Below, piece after piece: positions 31,171 to 41,070 of a stretch of DNA of 64,000 nucleotides (the first letter of the stretch is position 1; every line of letters starts with the position of its first letter). Below the pieces are notes generated by a model. That model saw nothing but the letters and a program-made list of their open reading frames with translations, ran no database searches and was not told the DNA's origin. A program made the translations under genes and the position numbers. This stretch comes from Rubritalea squalenifaciens DSM 18772 (GTDB lineage: Bacteria > Verrucomicrobiota > Verrucomicrobiia > Verrucomicrobiales > Akkermansiaceae): assembly GCF_900141815.1 (NCBI RefSeq), contig NZ_FQYR01000002.1, positions 969,091 through 1,033,090 of the forward strand. The letters run 5' to 3'.

Positions 31171-31206
31171 TTTCCTTGCTGCTACGCAGAAACAACAGAA
31201 TAATGA

Positions 31207-31237
31207 AAACGCTCCGCAGTAATGTGGGGCGTTTTTT
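31207..31237 (+). terminator. Rho-independent terminator
   Basis: AACGCTCC pairs with GGGGCGTT (8 bp, one G-U) around a 10-base loop, followed by six T residues. Closes the aminotransferase gene. Confidence 0.82.
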
Positions 31238-31269
31238 GTGTTTGAGGAGGTGAATGAACAGCTAGGAGG

Positions 31270-31298
31270 TTGACGCTATGAAGGGTTCACGCTAAGAC
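31270..31298 (+). promoter_or_regulatory. Promoter of the papain/caspase operon, leaderless type
   Basis: TTGACG (31270-31275), 17 bases, TAAGAC (31293-31298), then eight bases and the ATG at 31307. The arrangement matches the other leaderless-type promoters in the window. Confidence 0.5.
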
Positions 31299-31306
31299 GT
31301 TTTCCC

Positions 31307-32779
31307 ATGAACCTACCCCCTTCGTTGTTGCTTACACCCAAGGTACAGAGATCTGTAAGCCTATGCATCACTCTAACCTCATGTTTGTTGCTGTCGGCCG
31401 GATCGTTGTTTGGCCAGGTCCAGAAGCTTGGGGCCATTGTGGATTTGGAGGAGGACGCGCAGCAACCTCAGCTTAGTCGAATCGCAAAAAGAAGTCTCGA
31501 AGATTTGCCAAGCCGCGTGGACCTCAGGCCGTATTGCCCAGTTCCGGGTGATCAGGGGAATCATGGTACATGCACCGCATGGTCCAGCGCCTACCATGGG
31601 AGGACGATTCTTGAGGCAATTTCAGCGGATAGGCGTTCTAAGAGTGAGAATACTAAAGAAGCATTCTCCCCCTCATTCGTCTACAACCAGATTCGGAGTA
31701 CTGGAGGATGTGACCAGGGGACAAGCGTTCCCAGCGCTCTCTCACTGATGAAGCGCAAAGGAGCTTTGAAGGCACAGGTACTGAAATTTAACTGTAGCTT
31801 CACGGCTTGGGACAAGTACCGTGATATCACCGAGCCCTATAAGATATACGGTTATCTCAAGCTTCACGAGCCGTTCAGTAATAACAAAGTTCTTCCAGTA
31901 AAGAAGGCCCTGGCTGAGAAACAGCCTGTGCTTTGCAGCATGCATCTTGAAAAGAGCTTTCACCAACCGAAAAATGGTCGGTATGTCCCCAGTTCCTCAG
32001 AGCGACAAGTTGTCATCGATTTCAACTTCATGCGTGATGGCAAATACAAGGGGCATGCTATGTGTGTGGTGGGCTATGATGACAAGGTGGGAAGGAATGG
32101 AGCTTTTCTGCTGATCAACTCTTGGGGGACTTCATGGGGGAACGGTGGCTATTGCTGGGTGGAGTATGAGGACTATGCGCGCTTCGTGGTGCAGTCCTAC
32201 TCGATGGTGAATCCTCCGAGTTATGATGATAATCTATCAGGGGCAATCGTCATGGAGACGGAGAAAGGCCAGCGTATGACAGTGAAGCACAATCCTGCTA
32301 AACAAGCATACACCCTAGATGAGAACTGGCTGGCAGGAACTCGCTTCAGGCTCTATCTGGAGAACCAATCTCCAGTGCACCTCTATGCCTTCGGCTTTGA
32401 TGAATCTGGTCAGGCCTCGGCCGTATTTCCATACGCCCCTCGGGTGTCCTCATTGATCCCTTACAAAAAAAACTACGTGCCTATTCCTGATGAGGAACAC
32501 TTCATCGAGATTGAGGATACGCCTGGGAGAAATGAGCTGTGTGTTCTCTATTCTAACAAAGAGGTGGATTTGGATAAGCTGATCAAGGCTATCAATGTTC
32601 GGGGGAAGGCAATTGTGCAAAAAGACCTCTCTATAGATGTCGTGATTCGCGAAGAGTTGAATAAGTTGGGCATCACTCCCGTCCCAACTAATCAAATTCA
32701 GTATATCAATAACGAGGTACGCTTCACTTCCAAGAGGCTCAAAGAGCAGTGTGTGCCTCTGGTCATTCGTTTCCGATAA
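31307..32779 (+). CDS. Secreted papain-family (C1A) cysteine protease with DUF4384-like C-terminus
   Basis: 490 residues. An N-terminal hydrophobic segment (SLCITLTSCLLLSAGSLFG, to about residue 36) is a likely signal peptide. The C1 peptidase domain spans about 65-305: oxyanion Gln83 and nucleophile Cys89 in GDQGNHGTCTAWS, His250 in GHAMCVVGYDD, and Asn271 in LINSWGTSWGNGGY. All four catalytic positions are intact. Residues ~310-490 resemble DUF4384 (FRLYLENQSPVHLYAFGFDE, AVFPYAP, GRNELCVLYSNK), a module more often fused to caspase-like proteases. The caspase-fusion gene follows after 39 bases, so the two probably act together in the envelope. Confidence 0.87.
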   Translation: MNLPPSLLLTPKVQRSVSLCITLTSCLLLSAGSLFGQVQKLGAIVDLEEDAQQPQLSRIAKRSLEDLPSRVDLRPYCPVPGDQGNHGTCTAWSSAYHGRTILEAISADRRSKSENTKEAFSPSFVYNQIRSTGGCDQGTSVPSALSLMKRKGALKAQVLKFNCSFTAWDKYRDITEPYKIYGYLKLHEPFSNNKVLPVKKALAEKQPVLCSMHLEKSFHQPKNGRYVPSSSERQVVIDFNFMRDGKYKGHAMCVVGYDDKVGRNGAFLLINSWGTSWGNGGYCWVEYEDYARFVVQSYSMVNPPSYDDNLSGAIVMETEKGQRMTVKHNPAKQAYTLDENWLAGTRFRLYLENQSPVHLYAFGFDESGQASAVFPYAPRVSSLIPYKKNYVPIPDEEHFIEIEDTPGRNELCVLYSNKEVDLDKLIKAINVRGKAIVQKDLSIDVVIREELNKLGITPVPTNQIQYINNEVRFTSKRLKEQCVPLVIRFR

Positions 32780-32818
32780 AAGATTTTTCAAACTTACTAC
32801 CCTTACCCACCCAATACC

Positions 32819-35800
32819 ATGAAAGTAAAAGCACTGATTCTGGCAACTGCGTTGTCATGGCTAGGCAGTACTCTCGGGGCACTCTCACAGAGCCTCAACT
32901 TCTCAGATCCTTCGGCCTATAAAGACTATAGCTCAAGCACCTTGTTAGAGGTGACAAGTATGCGGGGAGACCGTGCGAATATTCGCTATTTTCTCGCAGC
33001 TCATCGAGGCAATGATGTAGAGGGGCTTCTATGCAAAGCGTGGGTGCTGTCCCGTAATGGCCGAGATCCAGAGGCCGTCGAGCTGTATACGAAGGTGATT
33101 CAGGACCCTAGGGCGAAAGGGTGGATGAAGTGTCTGGCTGCGCTTAACCGTGCCGCGACAGCTGGAGATGATGATCCCAAAATTGTAGAGTATCGTACTG
33201 AAGCAGTCAAAGTCTGCTATGAAGAAGGGGAGTTGTCTTATCTTTCCTCGATCGATTGCAGTCAGGAGTACTGGAATGTTAATTTGAAGCTGAAGCAGCA
33301 AAATCCAGCATTGGTGAAAGAGCTGTTGGCCAGCTATAAGCTCGCCGAAGCTCGTTATCACACCTACACCACCAAAAACTACAAAGAGGCCAAGCGCCTG
33401 ATTGATGAGATCTGGCGTATCGATATGGCCAAGTGGCCGAATCGCTTTGACTTTAGCCTGCTGATGCAGCTGAGGGGGAATTCAAAACTGTATCCAGAAG
33501 CCAAGTATGCCCAGCGCATGACTAGGGAGCCGCTGATTCATCGTTTCCTTGGAGAAATTGAGCGCGCGACCATGCAAAAGCAGGATAAGCTGAGAGCAAT
33601 GCAGGTCTGCGAGTGGGCTTCATCCTATGCCCAAATGTTGTATGATCTGGATACACGCTCAGGAAGCATGAGTATGCCCGCCTTCCAGATTCTCTATCAA
33701 TCTTTTGGCGGTGGCGTGCTGCGCTCAGACCCGTCTGGGAAAGCGCTGGCTTTACTCAATAATCTCTGGTTCCAGCCCTATGACGGGACTCAATTGAGAA
33801 GTAATGAGGCGCGTAGACAGAAGAAATTGGTGCCGTCTTACCGTCTCAAAGAGCTGGTAAAGTTCTCTTCTCGCGAGCCGAGTGTGCCTGACTGGAAATG
33901 GTATCGCGAGCGTGCCATACTCTGTGCCAGGGTGGGAGATCTGGAGAGCGCGAATCGACTTTTTCAAAAATCGGCAGCTGCGACCTTTGCCTATGATGAG
34001 CGCCGATCAGTTATCGTGGACTGGGCCACTTATTATCTGGGGCCTGCAAGGCATGACTATAGCTTGGCGTTCCAGGCTTTTGACTCGATAGAGGCAATGC
34101 CTGATATGACTGACAAGGCAAAGGCTCTGGTTAATACTGCCCGTGCGCAGTTGTATTTCAATATTGGTGATATGGGCAAGGCGAGGGCTGCTGCCGAGAG
34201 TGCACGCCAGTCTGATGGAGTTTCCAAGAAATGGGTCAATGATTTCCTGTATCAAGTCGGAGTCATGGAGCGTGTGGTCGATCACAAGAAGCGTTACGAG
34301 GAATCGAATCCAGTGATTGCTAACTGGAAGGGGCAGTTTGGTCGTCAGGGTGTATCCATGCAGCTCAACTTTGCGACTGGTTCGGCGGAGCTGCCTGGTG
34401 ATGCTGCCTCCAGGCTTCGCCCGCTTCTCGATATTTTTAATAATCCCAAGTACGAAAGTCTCGTGTTCAGAATTGAGGGACACACTGATAGTCGTGGCGG
34501 GGATAAAATCAACGAGCCTCTGTCTAAGAAACGTGCTAAGAGTCTCGTGAACTATTTGGCTAACAATTACCAGATTCCACTCCGACGTATGGAGTGGGAC
34601 GGTTATGGATCTAGAAGGCCTGTGGCCTCAAACCTGAGTGAGAGAGGTAGAGCTCTCAATAGGCGTGTGGAGCTGAACCTCATGGGGGATTCCAGTCGCC
34701 CTGATCTCGTGGCTACAGGTGTTCTCAAAAACAATATCACAGCAACGAGCCCTGATGGAAAGCTATTGATCGCGACCAATGGTGATGTCTGGGATACCCA
34801 ACAGTGGGTGAAGCTGTATTCCATTGATGCGAGTTACTCCAGTATGTCCTTCTCGCCGGATAGTAGATACATCTTTGTCTGCCAAAGTAGCAATGATGCT
34901 GAGGTCGGCATGCTGGTAGAAGCCAGCACAGGTGTTCTGGTGGACTTTGTGCCGAATTACTCAGCCCATTCATCGCTGATTAGATCTGCTTGGTCGCCTG
35001 ATTCACGTTACGTGGCTTATTCCTCTGTCCAGCACTGCCATATTTATGATGTCCATGCACGCCGAGTCGTAAGATCGATCACCTATTCAGGTGGCGGTAA
35101 TTGCTCCCGTATTTGTTTCGCGAAGGGTGGGAGCCACATCGCCATGCTGCCGAAGACTGGCTATGGCTGGGTTTACTTGGCAGATGTGAATACTGGTCAG
35201 GTAGAAGAAATTCACGTTCCTGAGATTCAATACGCTCATGACATGACATCATCGAGCGATGCCAGCTATGTCTATATCAGCTGTGATCCAGGATATATTT
35301 TGGATTGGGACACACTGAGGGAGGCAAAGCCAAGACTGCAGTCATTCTGGTATGAAGCGATACGCAGAGGGAAGCGTTTTTGCCCAAGCCCGATGTCCGT
35401 TCACCCAAGCAATCCTCACTTGGTTGCCGGTGGGGGGATCCACTCAGGTAATTGGGGTTATGTAGATTTCGAGCGCGGAACGACCAATTTTGCGAAATCA
35501 GAGGCAGGCTCTTTCAAGATGCGAACTTTCTGGGGGGAGAATGGTGAGGAATTGATCACCAGTGGCGGCTGGAAAGCCAATAGCAAATCCCGCTACGCCT
35601 ATGACCGACCAGGTCTCTATACCACCAGATACGTGCCAGGAAGATCGCTCTCTAACCAAGACCTGACTTTTGTCACGGGTGAGGCGTCTGAGATTGATTC
35701 TATTTACGCCTTCGAGAAGCTTCACATGATCGCTGTCATTGGCGGTGAAGGGGTGAGTCTCTGGGACATCAAGACCGGGAGACAGGTCCACCGCTGGAGT

Positions 35801-37882
35801 GATGCTTTGGCTTACTCGAGTGCAGGGCATGTTCATGCAGAAGGTGAACTTTATGGGGTGATCAATAATCCTGTGACTGCTGAGAGTATCTTGGTGAAGT
35901 ATGATCTGGTCAATTACCGCCGAACCGAACTTGGGCGCTACAAAGACCGCTTGATTAGCAAAATCGAAGCTGGAGAGACTACATTGGCGGTCGGATATAG
36001 TAATTATTGGACCAAGGAGCGGCGGGCTGAACCTGACCTCACTATCATGCTGTTGGATAAAAATAGTGGTCAGGAAAAAACACGGATACGCGTACCGGCT
36101 GCTACCAGATCACTCCAGTATGGGCAGATCTTCTATCCTGGGTTTGAGAGTATGGCGCTCTCTGCTGATGAGAAGAAAGTGGTCTTCTCCAGTAAGTGGG
36201 GCGACGGCTACGGTCATGGCACCGTCATCTCCAAAAAGCTCAGGCTCTGGGATGTGGGCAAAGGCACGGTAAAAGTCGTGACTGAAACCTCCAGTTCCAA
36301 TGGCATTGATTATGTAGGCTTCAGAGACTTGAACACCGTCGAGGTCTCAACCAATGAATACTCCAACAGTCTCTATAAGATTGATATCAATACAGGAGAT
36401 TGGGGGGATGCTATTCCGCGAAGCGAGCGTACACCGAAGAGTTCTTATGTGCCACTCGATGAAGCTTTCACCGATCTGAACCTGAAAGTGAGCTCCATCT
36501 ACAGCCGTGGTGAAATTTCCTTTGTGCGCCGTGATACAGGTGAGGCTGTGGTAACCATCCTCTACAAAGGAGACGAATGGATTGCCTACAATAAGGCTGG
36601 TTACTTCACGGCTTCTCAGGGAGGAGTAGATCGAGTGTACTGGAGAGTGGGGAGCCGCATGCTACCGATGGCAGCTCTTCGTGACAAATACGAGAACCCG
36701 ACTTTGATTGCTCACAGCTTGGACTCTATCTTTGCCAAGAAGGTGGTGAAGAAGGAGGTGGTGAGACCTAAGATTGACCCGGATCTGTTCCAGATTCCAT
36801 ACGAGATCAAGGTGCTCTCAGGCAATGGTACCTCGACTCAGGATCAGACCTACAAGATGCGCGTGGAAATCAAGAGCCTCACTCAGAGTGCTCCAGAGCC
36901 ACTGCTCGAGTGGACGATTAATGGTCGCAAGGCCCGTGGCTTTAAAGTGGTTCCAGCCAAAGTGGAGAACAGCCGCTTTATTGCTGAAGAGACCTTCAAC
37001 TTGAGTGAAGGAACAAACGTGATCACTGTAGCGATTCGCTATAAGAATGCCACAGTCATGCCGCAGACCGTTACCGTGACACGCGAGGTGAGGAAAGTGA
37101 GCCCCAAAGTGAAGGTGGCTAATACGCACCTTTGGTTCTTTGGAGTTGGTGTCAAAGATTACGCCAAGCCTGAGCAGAACCTAGACTTTGCTGACCGCGA
37201 TATCGAGGAAATGGCCAAGATGTTTAAATCCCAAGAAGGCAAACTCTTCAAGGAAGTCCATGTGAAGACGCTGACTAACAAGGAGGCGACTGTACGAAAT
37301 ATCAAGATCGAGATGAATCGCTTCCTCAAGCAGGCTTCCTCTGAAGATTTGATCATCATTCAGCTTGCTGGCCACGGTGTGGTGAGCAGCGATCAGGAGC
37401 TTTACTTCATGGCACACGATAGTGATATGAAGGAGGCCTTTACGGGCCTTGAGTTGAAAGACTTCTCAGATTTCTTGGAGAGGCTCCCACCCAGCCAGAA
37501 GGCACTTGTCTTGCTGGATATCTGCCACGCAGGACAGATCGGCCAAAAGCGTCGAGGCGGTGGGTTGACATCGGAAGATGCAGTCAAGGTGTTAGAGGAT
37601 GGTACGGGTACTGTCGTGCTGGCCTCTTCCACCGGACGTGAGTCTTCATTCGAAGATAAGTCATACCGTGGCGGCCATGGTGCCTTCACTGCTGCCTTGC
37701 TTGATGGTCTGGAAGGCATGGCTGACAAGAAGGCGGGTAACAGTGACGGCTGGGTTTATCTTACCGAGTTGACCAGCTACGTGGCTCGTGCTGTTCCTCA
37801 GATGACTGGGGGCGCACAGCATCCTATCGCTCCTAAAATGGAGAACTTGCGGGACTTCCCTCTGGGGCAATCCAGCAAGTAG
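32819..37882 (+). CDS. Giant secreted OmpA - beta-propeller - metacaspase fusion protein
   Basis: 1687 residues. Signal peptide (about 1-24). Residues ~40-500 are helical and TPR-like. An OmpA C-terminal peptidoglycan-binding domain lies at about 514-622 (RIEGHTDSRGGDKINEPLSK, then RAKSLVNYL and GRALNRRVELNL). A WD40/TolB-like propeller covers about 634-1200 (SMSFSPDSRYIFV, SAWSPDSRYVAYSS). A linker common in WD40-caspase proteins is near 1250 (GDEWIAYNKAGYFTASQGG), an Ig-like domain near 1325-1425, and a C14 caspase/metacaspase domain at about 1435-1687 with the His1519 (QLAGHGV) and Cys1569 (LLDICHAGQ) dyad and Asp1567 in the metacaspase S1 position. It would be a peptidoglycan-anchored protease of the periplasm or outer membrane. 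Substrate and trigger are unknown. Confidence 0.87.
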   Translation: MKVKALILATALSWLGSTLGALSQSLNFSDPSAYKDYSSSTLLEVTSMRGDRANIRYFLAAHRGNDVEGLLCKAWVLSRNGRDPEAVELYTKVIQDPRAKGWMKCLAALNRAATAGDDDPKIVEYRTEAVKVCYEEGELSYLSSIDCSQEYWNVNLKLKQQNPALVKELLASYKLAEARYHTYTTKNYKEAKRLIDEIWRIDMAKWPNRFDFSLLMQLRGNSKLYPEAKYAQRMTREPLIHRFLGEIERATMQKQDKLRAMQVCEWASSYAQMLYDLDTRSGSMSMPAFQILYQSFGGGVLRSDPSGKALALLNNLWFQPYDGTQLRSNEARRQKKLVPSYRLKELVKFSSREPSVPDWKWYRERAILCARVGDLESANRLFQKSAAATFAYDERRSVIVDWATYYLGPARHDYSLAFQAFDSIEAMPDMTDKAKALVNTARAQLYFNIGDMGKARAAAESARQSDGVSKKWVNDFLYQVGVMERVVDHKKRYEESNPVIANWKGQFGRQGVSMQLNFATGSAELPGDAASRLRPLLDIFNNPKYESLVFRIEGHTDSRGGDKINEPLSKKRAKSLVNYLANNYQIPLRRMEWDGYGSRRPVASNLSERGRALNRRVELNLMGDSSRPDLVATGVLKNNITATSPDGKLLIATNGDVWDTQQWVKLYSIDASYSSMSFSPDSRYIFVCQSSNDAEVGMLVEASTGVLVDFVPNYSAHSSLIRSAWSPDSRYVAYSSVQHCHIYDVHARRVVRSITYSGGGNCSRICFAKGGSHIAMLPKTGYGWVYLADVNTGQVEEIHVPEIQYAHDMTSSSDASYVYISCDPGYILDWDTLREAKPRLQSFWYEAIRRGKRFCPSPMSVHPSNPHLVAGGGIHSGNWGYVDFERGTTNFAKSEAGSFKMRTFWGENGEELITSGGWKANSKSRYAYDRPGLYTTRYVPGRSLSNQDLTFVTGEASEIDSIYAFEKLHMIAVIGGEGVSLWDIKTGRQVHRWSDALAYSSAGHVHAEGELYGVINNPVTAESILVKYDLVNYRRTELGRYKDRLISKIEAGETTLAVGYSNYWTKERRAEPDLTIMLLDKNSGQEKTRIRVPAATRSLQYGQIFYPGFESMALSADEKKVVFSSKWGDGYGHGTVISKKLRLWDVGKGTVKVVTETSSSNGIDYVGFRDLNTVEVSTNEYSNSLYKIDINTGDWGDAIPRSERTPKSSYVPLDEAFTDLNLKVSSIYSRGEISFVRRDTGEAVVTILYKGDEWIAYNKAGYFTASQGGVDRVYWRVGSRMLPMAALRDKYENPTLIAHSLDSIFAKKVVKKEVVRPKIDPDLFQIPYEIKVLSGNGTSTQDQTYKMRVEIKSLTQSAPEPLLEWTINGRKARGFKVVPAKVENSRFIAEETFNLSEGTNVITVAIRYKNATVMPQTVTVTREVRKVSPKVKVANTHLWFFGVGVKDYAKPEQNLDFADRDIEEMAKMFKSQEGKLFKEVHVKTLTNKEATVRNIKIEMNRFLKQASSEDLIIIQLAGHGVVSSDQELYFMAHDSDMKEAFTGLELKDFSDFLERLPPSQKALVLLDICHAGQIGQKRRGGGLTSEDAVKVLEDGTGTVVLASSTGRESSFEDKSYRGGHGAFTAALLDGLEGMADKKAGNSDGWVYLTELTSYVARAVPQMTGGAQHPIAPKMENLRDFPLGQSSK

Positions 37883-37900
37883 AGTCACTTTATAAGATTG

Positions 37901-37928
37901 AAAGCTCCACCATCTGGTGGAGCTTTTT
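37901..37928 (+). terminator. Rho-independent terminator
   Basis: AAAGCTCCACC-ATCT-GGTGGAGCTTT is a perfect 11-bp stem followed by further T residues. Closes the papain/caspase operon; the reverse strand has a weaker T-run that may help the convergent gene. Confidence 0.9.
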
Positions 37929-37947: not shown

Positions 37948-39987
37948 TTAGTTGGGTAAACTGAATACAGTCAGTACTGCTGCGTGATCAGAAGGCCAGG
38001 GGAAGTCGAGCTGAGGGTGGGTGCGGATGATTTCTGAATCCAAGATCTTGCAGCCTTTGTGATAGATGAAGTCAATACGCGCATATTGTAGATGACCGTA
38101 GATGACTGCGAAACTGCCGTCAGGGCGTAACACCTCGTCAGGATGAATCTCACGAAATGAGTCGGAAAAGCCGTATTGCTGCATCACTTGTGAGGTTGGA
38201 AAGGCAACCGGGCCGTAGCCACCGTGAAATTTTGCGGCTGCTTTGGTCCAGTCCAGGTGGCTGCACGAATTGAAATCTCCTCCTAGGATCATAGGCAGAT
38301 TTCTAGATGAATTGTTAGGAAGCAGGTCAGACTCAATGATGGCCTTTGCCTCCTTGGTGGATAGCTTGGAGTCTTCGTTGACCCAATGCTTGGTGTCTTC
38401 TCCAGGGCTTAGGTAGGATCCTTCACTATACTCGGTGTAACGTAACCACCAGTCTGCGAGGAGAAACTTCTTCCCATTGGGGAGGGAGACCTCTGCGACC
38501 AAGGATTGAAACTTAGACTGCTGGCTGGGCAGAGGCTTGATCGGGAAGCGGCTGAGGATCGAGAGGTTGGCCTTTTTGTCTGGTGTATAGAGGTGATAAC
38601 CAAGCTCTTTGGCGAGCATTTCTTGGGATCCGTAACTCTCTTGTAGGGTGATGATGTCAGCCTGGCTTGCTTTGATGAGTTCAAGAATGCGTTTGGGTCC
38701 ATCGGGTCCGAGATGCTTGCCACCATGCCAGATGTTCCAGTTAAGCATCCGCAGAGTATCGCCAGAGTCAGAGGTGGGAGATTGTATTTTGTTAGGTCGA
38801 GATGCTGTGTCTTTGGCGAAGTCTACGCTCTCGCCTGAGATAGATAGAGAGCGGATGGAGGCTTTGAGGTCTCTGCCGGGCTGGGCTTTGTCCGATATGT
38901 CGGCAGAGAGAGTCAGGTAGTGGATCCCGGGGGAGAATTTCGGAGCTTCGCCTGGAGACCAAGAGAAGGTGATGGAGTCATCGGAAGCGAGCTTGGCTGT
39001 CTTGAGAAGCGCAGCACCACTGATGGCAGCTTGGCCACTGGAATGGTGTAGATAGAGCTGTTTGATGTTCTTGTGGCCATCAATGTGCAACTGTAGCTTG
39101 TCTAGTTTTCCGATGTCTGATCCCCCCTCTACAATGAGGCGAAGCGTGCCCAGTGGAACAGCCTTGCTGCCAGCAGGAATAGGCCACTCGCTTCGGATCT
39201 CGGTAGCATCAAATAAGAAGCCACGCTCAGAAACTTTGCTCAGATCCGGATGCTTCTGGGTGATCGTGATGGCGTGAGGGTCATTGCCATAATATTGAAG
39301 GCGGCCATTTCTGGCGTGGAAGTAGAGTGGTGCCCTGCCTACTCGGTTGAGCGCCATTTCTGGATTCATGTCATCGAAGGACCAGTAGCCATAGAGGCTC
39401 TCGCGTTGAGGGTGCTTCGCTGTAGGTATCTCAGCCTTCCATTGTTTCAGGGTGGTGGCATCAAGAGCTGCTTTCCAGACGCGTACGTCATCAATGCCGC
39501 CGCCAAAGACGGACTTGGGATCAACATGGTTCCCGATGGAAGATGGAAGGATAGATAGTGAGGAGTCAGATATGGCAGCCTGTGCTCCATCAATGAATAG
39601 ACGGGTCTGGTTCCCATCGCAACTCATGGCCACGTGATGCCAAGCTTTATCGAGTGCTTGCTTTGCTTTCAGATTGGCTGCCTTACTACAGAGTATGCCG
39701 TTTTCGAGCTCCAGGGCGATTTCATGTACACCTTGGATCTTGGCATAGCGGCCAGAGGCGATGAGGACTTCTGATGGCTTCCAGTGGTCTTCATCTCCTT
39801 TGATCCACATCTCGACCGTCCACGGGGGGCGTACGACATCAAGACCGGTATTGATTTCATCATCTTTGCCATCGAGCCAGACGGCTTTTCGTTCACGGGC
39901 TTGGGCTGGTGAGCTGTGTGCTAGGGCCAGGCAGCATAAGCAAGCCACGGGGCCACTGAGGTGTTTGGATAAATTGATAGAGAGCAT
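37948..39987 (-). CDS. Secreted LamG - endonuclease/exonuclease/phosphatase-family protein
   Basis: 679 residues from the ATG at 39987, which opens a signal peptide (to about residue 30, ending SSPAQA); a longer reading starts 18 codons earlier without a signal. A LamG domain spans about 35-200 (PWTVEMWIKGDEDHWK, KAWHHVAMSCDG, GGIDDVRVWKAALD). A beta-sandwich region is in the middle, and an EEP domain covers about 415-679 with its hallmarks: Asn in MLNWNIWHGG, Glu in ITLQESYGSQ, GGDFNS, and the late Asp/His in PSDHAAVLTVF. EEP enzymes cleave phosphodiesters in nucleic acids or phospholipids; which one is not clear. LamG suggests attachment to a glycan. Confidence 0.84.
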   Translation of the reverse strand: MLSINLSKHLSGPVACLCCLALAHSSPAQARERKAVWLDGKDDEINTGLDVVRPPWTVEMWIKGDEDHWKPSEVLIASGRYAKIQGVHEIALELENGILCSKAANLKAKQALDKAWHHVAMSCDGNQTRLFIDGAQAAISDSSLSILPSSIGNHVDPKSVFGGGIDDVRVWKAALDATTLKQWKAEIPTAKHPQRESLYGYWSFDDMNPEMALNRVGRAPLYFHARNGRLQYYGNDPHAITITQKHPDLSKVSERGFLFDATEIRSEWPIPAGSKAVPLGTLRLIVEGGSDIGKLDKLQLHIDGHKNIKQLYLHHSSGQAAISGAALLKTAKLASDDSITFSWSPGEAPKFSPGIHYLTLSADISDKAQPGRDLKASIRSLSISGESVDFAKDTASRPNKIQSPTSDSGDTLRMLNWNIWHGGKHLGPDGPKRILELIKASQADIITLQESYGSQEMLAKELGYHLYTPDKKANLSILSRFPIKPLPSQQSKFQSLVAEVSLPNGKKFLLADWWLRYTEYSEGSYLSPGEDTKHWVNEDSKLSTKEAKAIIESDLLPNNSSRNLPMILGGDFNSCSHLDWTKAAAKFHGGYGPVAFPTSQVMQQYGFSDSFREIHPDEVLRPDGSFAVIYGHLQYARIDFIYHKGCKILDSEIIRTHPQLDFPWPSDHAAVLTVFSLPN

Positions 39988-40116
39988 GAGTGGTAGTGTG
40001 GTGGTGTGGTGGTGACCACGGAATCGTGAATCACTACTCATTCTACGCGGCTCGTGGGGTCAAACAATCGGCAAGATCGATGAATCACATGGCATAATCC
40101 GTCGCAATAGAATAGG

Positions 40117-41070
40117 TCACTTGAGGATACGGCTGACAGTGTAGCCTTGCTCCCGGAGTAGCTTGAGAATATTCCTCTCTCTTTCCAAAAAATGAGCACA
40201 ACCAGCGATAATGAAGTGGGACTGGTCTGGGTGTGAGCGAAACTTCTTGTTGATGCTTTTGACCATCACTTGGTCGCGCCTGTCCATTTCACGGTCCAAT
40301 TTTTCGGTGAGCTCTTTGGAGGTGACTTGGTGGGGCTCCATACGTTTGTTAAACTCATCCATAGCCTTCTTGGTGCCTAGCAAGTAGGCCTCTGTTATTT
40401 CCTGATCCAGAGTCTTACCGCGTGAACGTGCCGCGTTTTGCATGGCCAAATATTCTCGTAGAGCCTGTCGAACCTCCAAAACGCTGAGCTCTTTGTACCC
40501 GTCCATGGAGTCTCCATCGGGCTCTAGTGCCCAATTAGGCTTGGAGAGCTTGGTGGCCCGTTTGGCGAGATGTTCATCCATGAAGGTGTGGTGGCTCAAT
40601 AGGCTCTCCATGCAGGGAAGAGTGAGGACAAGAAACCAGGTTTGCTTGGTCTCATAAAAGGAGATGTCGAGATCTGGGCTAATGGTATTGAGCTCTTTGC
40701 TGACGTCTTTGTAGAGGTCGAGTCCTAGATCTGCTTTAAGGTTAAATTGGCTCTTTCTGGTGATGTTTGGCTCATCTTTCTGTTCAGCTTCTTGAGGATT
40801 ATTCTCAAAAGTTACCTCTGTGGCCAGAGTGTCTGCCTGGAGAAAGGCCCTCTCGGCAGCCGGATGTAACTTAAGTAGTCGTGGGTCACCTAGGTGCACT
40901 GAGCCAAGCAGGTAGCTCGGCTTCTTGAGGCCATTGCCCTCCACTTTCCAGAGGAACGGCTTTAATGGGTGTTTGAGCTTACTGAAGTCGACTTTCTCCT
41001 CGACCTGCTGTGCTCCAACATAAGCAATGTTGATGAGGAATGCGCAAGTGATAAAGAGGAAGCGTTTCAT
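40117..41070 (-). CDS. TraB/GumN-family protein
   Basis: 317 residues with a signal peptide (residues 1-20, ending YVGA). The family motif appears at the N-terminus (SYLLGSVHLGDPRLLKLHPA, followed by LATEVTF), and the paired C-terminal motif is HFIIAGCAHFLERERNILKLL. Bacterial members are proposed metallo-hydrolases or haem-related proteins of the envelope, but the activity is not settled. It starts only five bases after the stop of the YmdB-type gene, so they share a transcript. Confidence 0.85.
   Translation of the reverse strand: MKRFLFITCAFLINIAYVGAQQVEEKVDFSKLKHPLKPFLWKVEGNGLKKPSYLLGSVHLGDPRLLKLHPAAERAFLQADTLATEVTFENNPQEAEQKDEPNITRKSQFNLKADLGLDLYKDVSKELNTISPDLDISFYETKQTWFLVLTLPCMESLLSHHTFMDEHLAKRATKLSKPNWALEPDGDSMDGYKELSVLEVRQALREYLAMQNAARSRGKTLDQEITEAYLLGTKKAMDEFNKRMEPHQVTSKELTEKLDREMDRRDQVMVKSINKKFRSHPDQSHFIIAGCAHFLERERNILKLLREQGYTVSRILK

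Follow-up and report, generated by a model that had tools for sequence, protein, structure and literature searches.

Bacterial caspase homologues are mainly discussed as cytoplasmic or membrane-spanning death proteases whose triggers are unknown. Their commonest partner domain is WD40, reported for 73 putative bacterial metacaspases (10.9%; PMC3501461). The cited passages of the same 2012 survey place operons with several metacaspases (three at most) only in Alpha- and Deltaproteobacteria, Bacteroidetes and Cyanobacteria, and count proteolysis domains in 23 metacaspase operons and OmpA in 14; loose links of these kinds have therefore been seen before. A 2016 survey called the Verrucomicrobia metacaspase-deprived (PMC4933709).

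Other described systems share parts of the architecture considered here. NLR-like STAND/NACHT-WD40-caspase conflict systems join a propeller sensor to a caspase, and some related iSTAND systems carry peptidoglycan-associating domains, OmpA among them (PMC7159879). Secreted YARHG-caspase proteins, with an example from Bradyrhizobium, combine an exported C14 domain with a proposed peptidoglycan-binding domain (PMC3355149). The type IX secretion protein PorE and other TPR/propeller/OmpA envelope proteins join OmpA to repeats.

The locus described here lies in a 64,000-nt stretch of the Rubritalea squalenifaciens DSM 18772 genome (hereafter the window) and encodes a papain-like (C1A) peptidase with a DUF4384 domain, followed by a giant protein with OmpA, WD40-like propeller and C14 caspase domains. 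By its C14 domain with a His-Cys dyad and its WD40-like repeats, the pair appears to belong with the prokaryotic WD40-caspase homologues (orthocaspases/metacaspases), as an extracytoplasmic form with a dedicated papain-like partner. Unlike the known cytoplasmic or membrane-spanning WD40-caspases, those of this module are predicted to be exported, carry C14 at the C-terminal end and have a C1A-DUF4384 gene attached; in Rubritalea an OmpA domain is fused as well. In contrast to the operons of the 2012 survey, up to four caspases stand in tandem, and the host phylum, Verrucomicrobiota, is one that earlier surveys called metacaspase-poor. Compared with the STAND/NACHT systems, the giant protein contains no NTPase domain (Pfam scan, E <= 1), and all 18 module proteins scored have export-signal-like N-termini, whereas those systems are cytoplasmic. 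The YARHG-caspases use a different wall-binding domain and have no propeller-OmpA order, nor do the cited passages on them report a papain-like partner. The NCBIfam PorE model reaches only 31.3 bits in the giant protein (cut-off 600), and PorE lacks a caspase.

Known defence and secretion systems were both rejected as identifications: PADLOC returned only ZorB models, matching via OmpA, and a caspase model matched over 2-157 of 453, and NCBIfam gave domain-level matches only. Full-text literature searches on caspase homologues and DUF4384 yielded no description of the C1A/caspase pair or its layout, in line with the preliminary description, which knew of none. For caspases, export, WD40 repeats and operon links to OmpA are each known in kind; as far as we have searched, both the exported module with its own C1A-DUF4384 gene and the fusion of OmpA, propeller and caspase are new.

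Locus organization

Both open reading frames were found exactly as first described (Table 1). We predict that they form a two-gene transcription unit, given the 39-nt gap between them and the hairpins that flank them. These are the two strongest terminator-like hairpins of the region; the regional total (8 found, 5.7 +/- 2.2 expected from shuffles) shows no excess, so the terminator argument rests on the two long stems. The upstream hairpin would mark where a separate unit begins. No promoter-like site was seen between it and the C1A gene.

Table 1. Features of the C1A/caspase locus (positions in the window; residues of the respective protein)
Feature	Position	Strand	Residues	Remarks
Terminator-like hairpin	31205..31236	+		14 pairs; 3' of upstream aminotransferase gene; longest of 8 in region
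C1A papain-like peptidase gene with DUF4384	31307..32779	+	490 aa	Export-signal-like N-terminus
C1A domain			about 67-300	Gln83, Cys89, His250, Asn271
DUF4384 domain			about 343-418	
Intergenic gap	32780..32818	+		39 nt, without terminator
OmpA/WD40-like/C14 gene (giant protein)	32819..37882	+	1687 aa	Export-signal-like N-terminus
N-terminal helical region, weakly TPR-like	32894..34348	+	26-510	TPR_2 9.5e-5, below cut-off
OmpA C-terminal-type domain	34349..34693	+	511-625	Asp557, Arg572
WD40-like propeller region	34694..36418	+	626-1200	Pfam 641-929, beyond by eye
C14 caspase domain	37127..37879	+	1437-1687	His1519, Cys1569, Asp1461, Asp1567
Terminator-like hairpin	37900..37927	+		12 pairs; 3' of caspase gene

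Two minimal open reading frames precede the C1A start codon (31254-31265 and 31278-31295), each placed right after an AGGAGG, while the start codon itself has no AGGAGG immediately upstream; this arrangement may be due to chance. Downstream, on the opposite strand, lie genes for an exported endonuclease/phosphatase-family protein with a LamG domain (37948-40041) and for a TraB/PrgY/gumN-family protein (40117-41070).

The C1A-DUF4384 protein

The papain-like and DUF4384 assignments are firm, with Pfam matches above the cut-offs for Peptidase_C1 (7.2e-12; 46.3 bits, cut-off 20.7) and DUF4384 (9.6e-8; 32.4 bits, cut-off 27). The catalytic set reported in the preliminary description is intact: all four residues are present in papain order, are kept in the closest relative, G058 (see below), and are invariant in 12/12 aligned C1A sequences. 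A profile of the C1A family matches many papain structures at the sequence level, the best solved match being PDB 3ois (7.2e-22, spanning the catalytic domain). We take this structure to be xylellain; the PDB entry itself reads 'Cysteine protease'. Compared with xylellain-type peptidases, the window protein adds a DUF4384 domain after the C1A domain and a caspase gene as neighbour. An AlphaFold prediction of this protein with one relative had a mean pLDDT of 43.0, too low to interpret.

Ahead of the C1A domain, 10/10 of the proteins from outside Rubritalea carry the motif Pro-Tyr-Lys-Ala, and the two Rubritalea proteins have basic residues near the same position. The claim that DUF4384 is usually fused to caspases proved too strong: the domain is found on some caspases, 23/473 cyanobacterial orthocaspases among them (PMC8283722), and kinases are also combined with it (PMC6426788).

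The OmpA-propeller-caspase protein

For the giant protein, Pfam scored C14 (2e-14, residues 1443-1670) and OmpA (1.6e-13, residues 518-615) above their cut-offs, and these two calls are firm. The propeller assignment is good but indirect: the best of the beta-propeller matches over residues 641-929 has an E-value of 1.1e-7, none reaches a curated cut-off, and WD-type motifs read by eye continue to about residue 1200. The helical repeats, seen as a TPR-like region, are a weak call. Overall, the architecture first proposed is confirmed, firmly for OmpA and C14, less directly for the propeller and weakly for the N-terminal repeats. Among the matches listed, the N-terminal helical region occurs only in the window and G058; across 189 genomes of the order, a sample that does not include G058, only the window's own genome had it.

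The caspase domain retains the His-Cys dyad noted earlier, His1519 and Cys1569 being kept in G058 and the dyad in 32/32 aligned C14 sequences. Its profile matches metacaspase structures with E-values of 0.0005-0.07, and the NCBIfam EACC1-associated caspase model stays below its cut-off (93 bits against 140). Asp1461 and Asp1567, presumably the acidic specificity-pocket residues of metacaspases, are likewise invariant (32/32). All 30 C14 sequences from outside Rubritalea have Arg-Gly at Cys+12; the window caspase has KRR at 1577-1579, a candidate processing site, and KRR is present in both Rubritalea sequences. For residues 629-1687 modelled with one relative, AlphaFold gave a mean pLDDT of 44.0, too low to interpret.

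Both window proteins begin with basic residues followed by a hydrophobic stretch. Their best 11-residue hydropathy values (C1A protein 2.39, giant 2.06) exceed those of seven cytosolic controls from the window (0.74-1.52), and 18/18 module proteins scored by the same hydropathy test, which is not a signal-peptide program, have export-signal-like N-termini. The secretion claimed for both proteins is supported to that extent.

Solved OmpA domains of the peptidoglycan type align with the entire OmpA domain of the giant protein, and the alignment covers Asp557 and Arg572. The spacing of these residues (15) equals that in PDB 3td3 and others, and both are conserved in G058, whose OmpA domain is 55% identical. 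We take them to be the equivalents of D271 and R286, the diaminopimelate site of A. baumannii OmpA. We infer that the domain fastens the giant protein to peptidoglycan. The preliminary description had made such anchoring depend on peptidoglycan-binding residues, and these are kept; as a general part of the module the anchor falls away, since, of the C14 loci examined in this class, the window and G058 alone have OmpA fused to C14.

Exported caspases with wall targeting nevertheless seem to recur, in G318, of the same order (OmpA gene, YARHG), and in G008, of the window's family, whose C14 protein has a YARHG match just below the cut-off (26.9 against 27). YARHG is a proposed peptidoglycan binder (PMC3355149). 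The G318 locus (L157, 4328-14944) is a one-strand cluster dividing the building blocks of the window differently: it encodes a DUF4384 cytochrome, an OmpA protein, an exported WD40-C14 protein, a C14-FGE-sulfatase protein, an M15 carboxypeptidase and a C14-YARHG protein, with the OmpA gene 39 nt upstream of the exported WD40-C14 gene.

Distribution of the gene pair

A search of 97 family genomes gave a single further full-length relative of the C1A protein, in G058 (CAKZNV010000036.1, an uncultured Rubritalea sp. of the window's genus). The same holds for the giant protein among the matches listed; the others listed were to the OmpA part, to C14 alone in G008, and two weak partial C1A matches. 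A contig profile search with the propeller-caspase alignment also found the G058 record as sole relative. In G058 the genes are adjacent and in the same order, their products being 47% (C1A) and 43% (giant) identical to those of the window, and the flanks differ.

With a profile built from these two C1A sequences, 387 genomes of the phylum yielded long relatives in G129, G138, G174 and G177. A six-row C1A profile then separated six full-length genes (675-841 bits) from the next match (95 bits) in 384 genomes of the class; five were those known before and the sixth was in G658. Extending the search to the families of G174 (200 genomes), G138 (43) and G658 (10) added G831, G817, G757, G698 and G867. 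The resulting sample comprises 12 C1A-DUF4384 genes from 8 genera and 4 families of one class, three of them from one genus.

The C1A genes were found without use of C14. All 12 full-length genes, window included, have WD40-C14 genes on the same strand; 11/12 are directly adjacent to C14, and in G174 the two are one gene apart, with a 497-aa open reading frame between them. The adjacency that the preliminary description proposed to check in Verrucomicrobiota thus holds, within one gene, for 12/12. The C1A gene lies upstream of the C14 genes everywhere except in G177. C14 genes number one per locus in the window and G058, two in G129, G177, G658 and G757, three in G174, at least three in G867, and four in G138, G831, G817 and G698.

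Near C1A genes without DUF4384, C14 was found in none of 16 fetched control loci, drawn from a larger set of C1A matches (66 and 29 genomes in two scans) and partly on short contigs (7.8-13.9 kb) with partial neighbourhoods. On the basis of these C1A-only loci, chance adjacency was rejected. The C14 profile picks up unrelated C14 domains elsewhere at 40-138 bits; above 300 bits, it marks among the 384 class genomes exactly the six with C1A-DUF4384 (14 genes; next match 134), and since it was built from those genomes and G058, the height of the scores follows by construction, while the absence elsewhere does not. That the two window genes belong together is supported by these comparisons.

Presence is patchy, with the pair in 2/12 genomes of the genus and in 6/200, 3/43 and 1/10 genomes of three other families. 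Outside the phylum, a plasmid collection was scanned and 2 of the 18 plasmid records with a C1A match were opened. One, a Persicobacter plasmid (Bacteroidota; NZ_AP025295.1, L120 14782-16311), has a C1A gene whose product aligns with 88% of the query at 28.5% identity and matches DUF4384 weakly (17 bits), without C14 in the 31 kb seen; the pairing is therefore not universal.

Caspase conservation and kinship

Compared with its G058 counterpart, the giant protein of the window shows 72% identity in the caspase domain and 38% in the rest (30% in the N-terminal region, 40% and 31% in the propeller halves); for DapA, identity between these genomes is 70%. The same contrast holds in all 105 pairs of 15 module proteins, in which identity is higher over the last 255 residues than elsewhere. 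It is extreme within one genome, where G174_1 and G174_3 share 93.3% of the caspase and 35.4% of the remainder, sensor identities being slightly lowered by the translation of G138_3, G138_4 and G174_3 from the upstream stop. This pattern fits a constant effector with variable sensors, and its direction could also result from ordinary purifying selection on the enzyme with loose constraint on the repeats.

Recent gene conversion was considered for the 93% caspase identity in G174 and found no support in four-fold-site matches: G174_1 and G174_3 match at 80/122 sites in the caspase and at 46/96 in eleven sensor windows to residue 637, and the more diverged pair G174_1/G174_2 matches at 53/85 in the last three windows. 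An old conversion event in the G174 pair is possible.

The window and G058 caspases fall outside the clade of the other 30 module caspases. In a first C14 tree (56 rows, very long branches), they group with non-module caspases at 97% SH-aLRT. In a second (46 rows, ten long rows including L157 having been dropped after the first), that grouping has 90/66, branches are still long, and the AU test does not reject a single clade uniting them with the module caspases (p-AU 0.213); two partial rows are absent from both trees. This leaves two readings: a module caspase that has diverged far in Rubritalea, or a C1A gene that took another caspase partner there.

Proposed function and alternative readings

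The export-like N-termini, the intact cysteine-protease residues, the two-gene unit and the recurring, patchy pairing lead us to read the two genes as one extracytoplasmic proteolytic module, in which a wall-bound sensor-caspase would act with a shared papain-like executor. We assign this reading a probability of roughly 40%. The OmpA domain would tether the giant protein to peptidoglycan, and the long propeller part, whose fast divergence contrasts with the fixed caspase, would be the sensor. An Arg/Lys preference of the caspase is suggested by the two invariant aspartates together with the specificity reported for the caspase-homologue family (PMC5756287). We hypothesize that the caspase activates itself by a cut at a basic site shortly after the catalytic cysteine, at the Arg of Cys+12 or the KRR of Rubritalea, by analogy with orthocaspase MaOC1, for which autocatalysis at Arg219 is described (PMC7475262). 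The active caspase may then process the papain-like enzyme in its short, basic N-terminal stretch, or be processed by it, as suggested by Pro-Tyr-Lys-Ala and the nearby basic residues in Rubritalea. As the sole component common to arrays of up to four caspases, the papain-like enzyme could be a common executor that degrades envelope proteins, and in Rubritalea a single wall-bound caspase would stand in place of the array. The basic processing sites in both proteins hint at such a relay; its direction and outcome are guesses. Recurrence of this kind of pair in distant relatives hints at a cell-envelope system of sensors and proteases that has not been described before.

Against the module reading stand the tree position of the Rubritalea caspases, apart from the clade that the other module caspases form, the different placing of the candidate processing sites in Rubritalea and the rest, the Persicobacter C1A gene without C14, and the lack of a promoter-like site between the upstream hairpin and the C1A gene. 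Ordinary constraint alone can also yield a conserved enzyme with diverged repeats. In another reading, the proteins are an immune or self/non-self receptor system of the envelope; the propellers would recognise molecules of invaders or non-kin, such as phage tails, effectors or proteins of neighbours, and the proteases would kill or seal off the cell, much as NLR-WD40-caspase systems do, but outside the cytoplasm and without an NTPase. The patchy presence, the variable sensors on a constant effector in arrays of up to four, and the exported TPR-CHAT protein, another caspase-fold protease, of the G177 island speak for it, and a role as death-factor receptors has been proposed for extracellular WD40 parts of caspase homologues (PMC7475262). 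However, the module has no NTPase, nuclease or pore gene, and PADLOC offers nothing beyond the caspase and OmpA-mediated ZorB models; we consider this reading rather unlikely. The more specific idea of an extracytoplasmic counterpart of NLR-caspase immunity, with rapidly diversifying WD40-type receptors outside the membrane, near-constant caspases, one shared papain-like executor and, in Rubritalea, a receptor bolted down by OmpA to guard the wall, is speculative and we would not expect it to be right.

Patchy distribution is in turn what a housekeeping role fits poorly. Constitutive trimming or clearance of exported proteins by the pair, with propellers as substrate receptors, would agree with exported proteases, one bearing a wall-type OmpA domain (both predicted), and with the G318 cluster, where OmpA, exported WD40-C14, the DUF4384 cytochrome and the M15 enzyme, a D-Ala-D-Ala carboxypeptidase, lie together. 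Such maturation or quality control predicts wide and stable presence, though, whereas the unit is rare, and fast sensor divergence is less expected; we consider it somewhat improbable. Digestion of environmental protein for nutrition, for which the predicted export of both proteins and the exported endonuclease/phosphatase-family neighbour could be adduced, is highly improbable, as a wall-anchoring domain and caspase-type restricted specificity are ill-suited to it and the flanking genes differ in G058 and other loci. The genes might also be neighbours by chance, or hitch-hike on one mobile island without joint function. Since the Rubritalea caspase does not group firmly with the others, the pairing could have arisen more than once; yet its presence in 12/12 cases, across 8 genera and 4 families and amid differing flanks, makes chance or hitch-hiking very unlikely, and a pairing that arose twice would favour function over chance.

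If the module reading is right, exported and apparently wall-bound caspases with one second protease would offer a defined two-to-five-gene system for testing trigger, cascade order and outcome. The pattern of constant effector and variable sensors, if functional, would amount to receptor-like recognition outside the bacterial membrane.

Other features of the related loci

In G177 (L072, 3999-9348), genes for the exported TPR-CHAT protein (CHAT 7.8e-53) and for an exported WD40-like protein lie by the module on the same strand. G363, of the window's family, has three neighbouring large C14 open reading frames (L152, 473-14555; 1326-1408 aa), and the one scanned with Pfam has ankyrin repeats after C14. 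In G138 (L070, 4223-8068), an N-terminal part resembling, by eye, a right-handed beta-helix is fused to WD40-C14, and in G174 (L071, 8729-10222) the same beta-helix-like part, with no Pfam match at 0.01, forms a separate gene.
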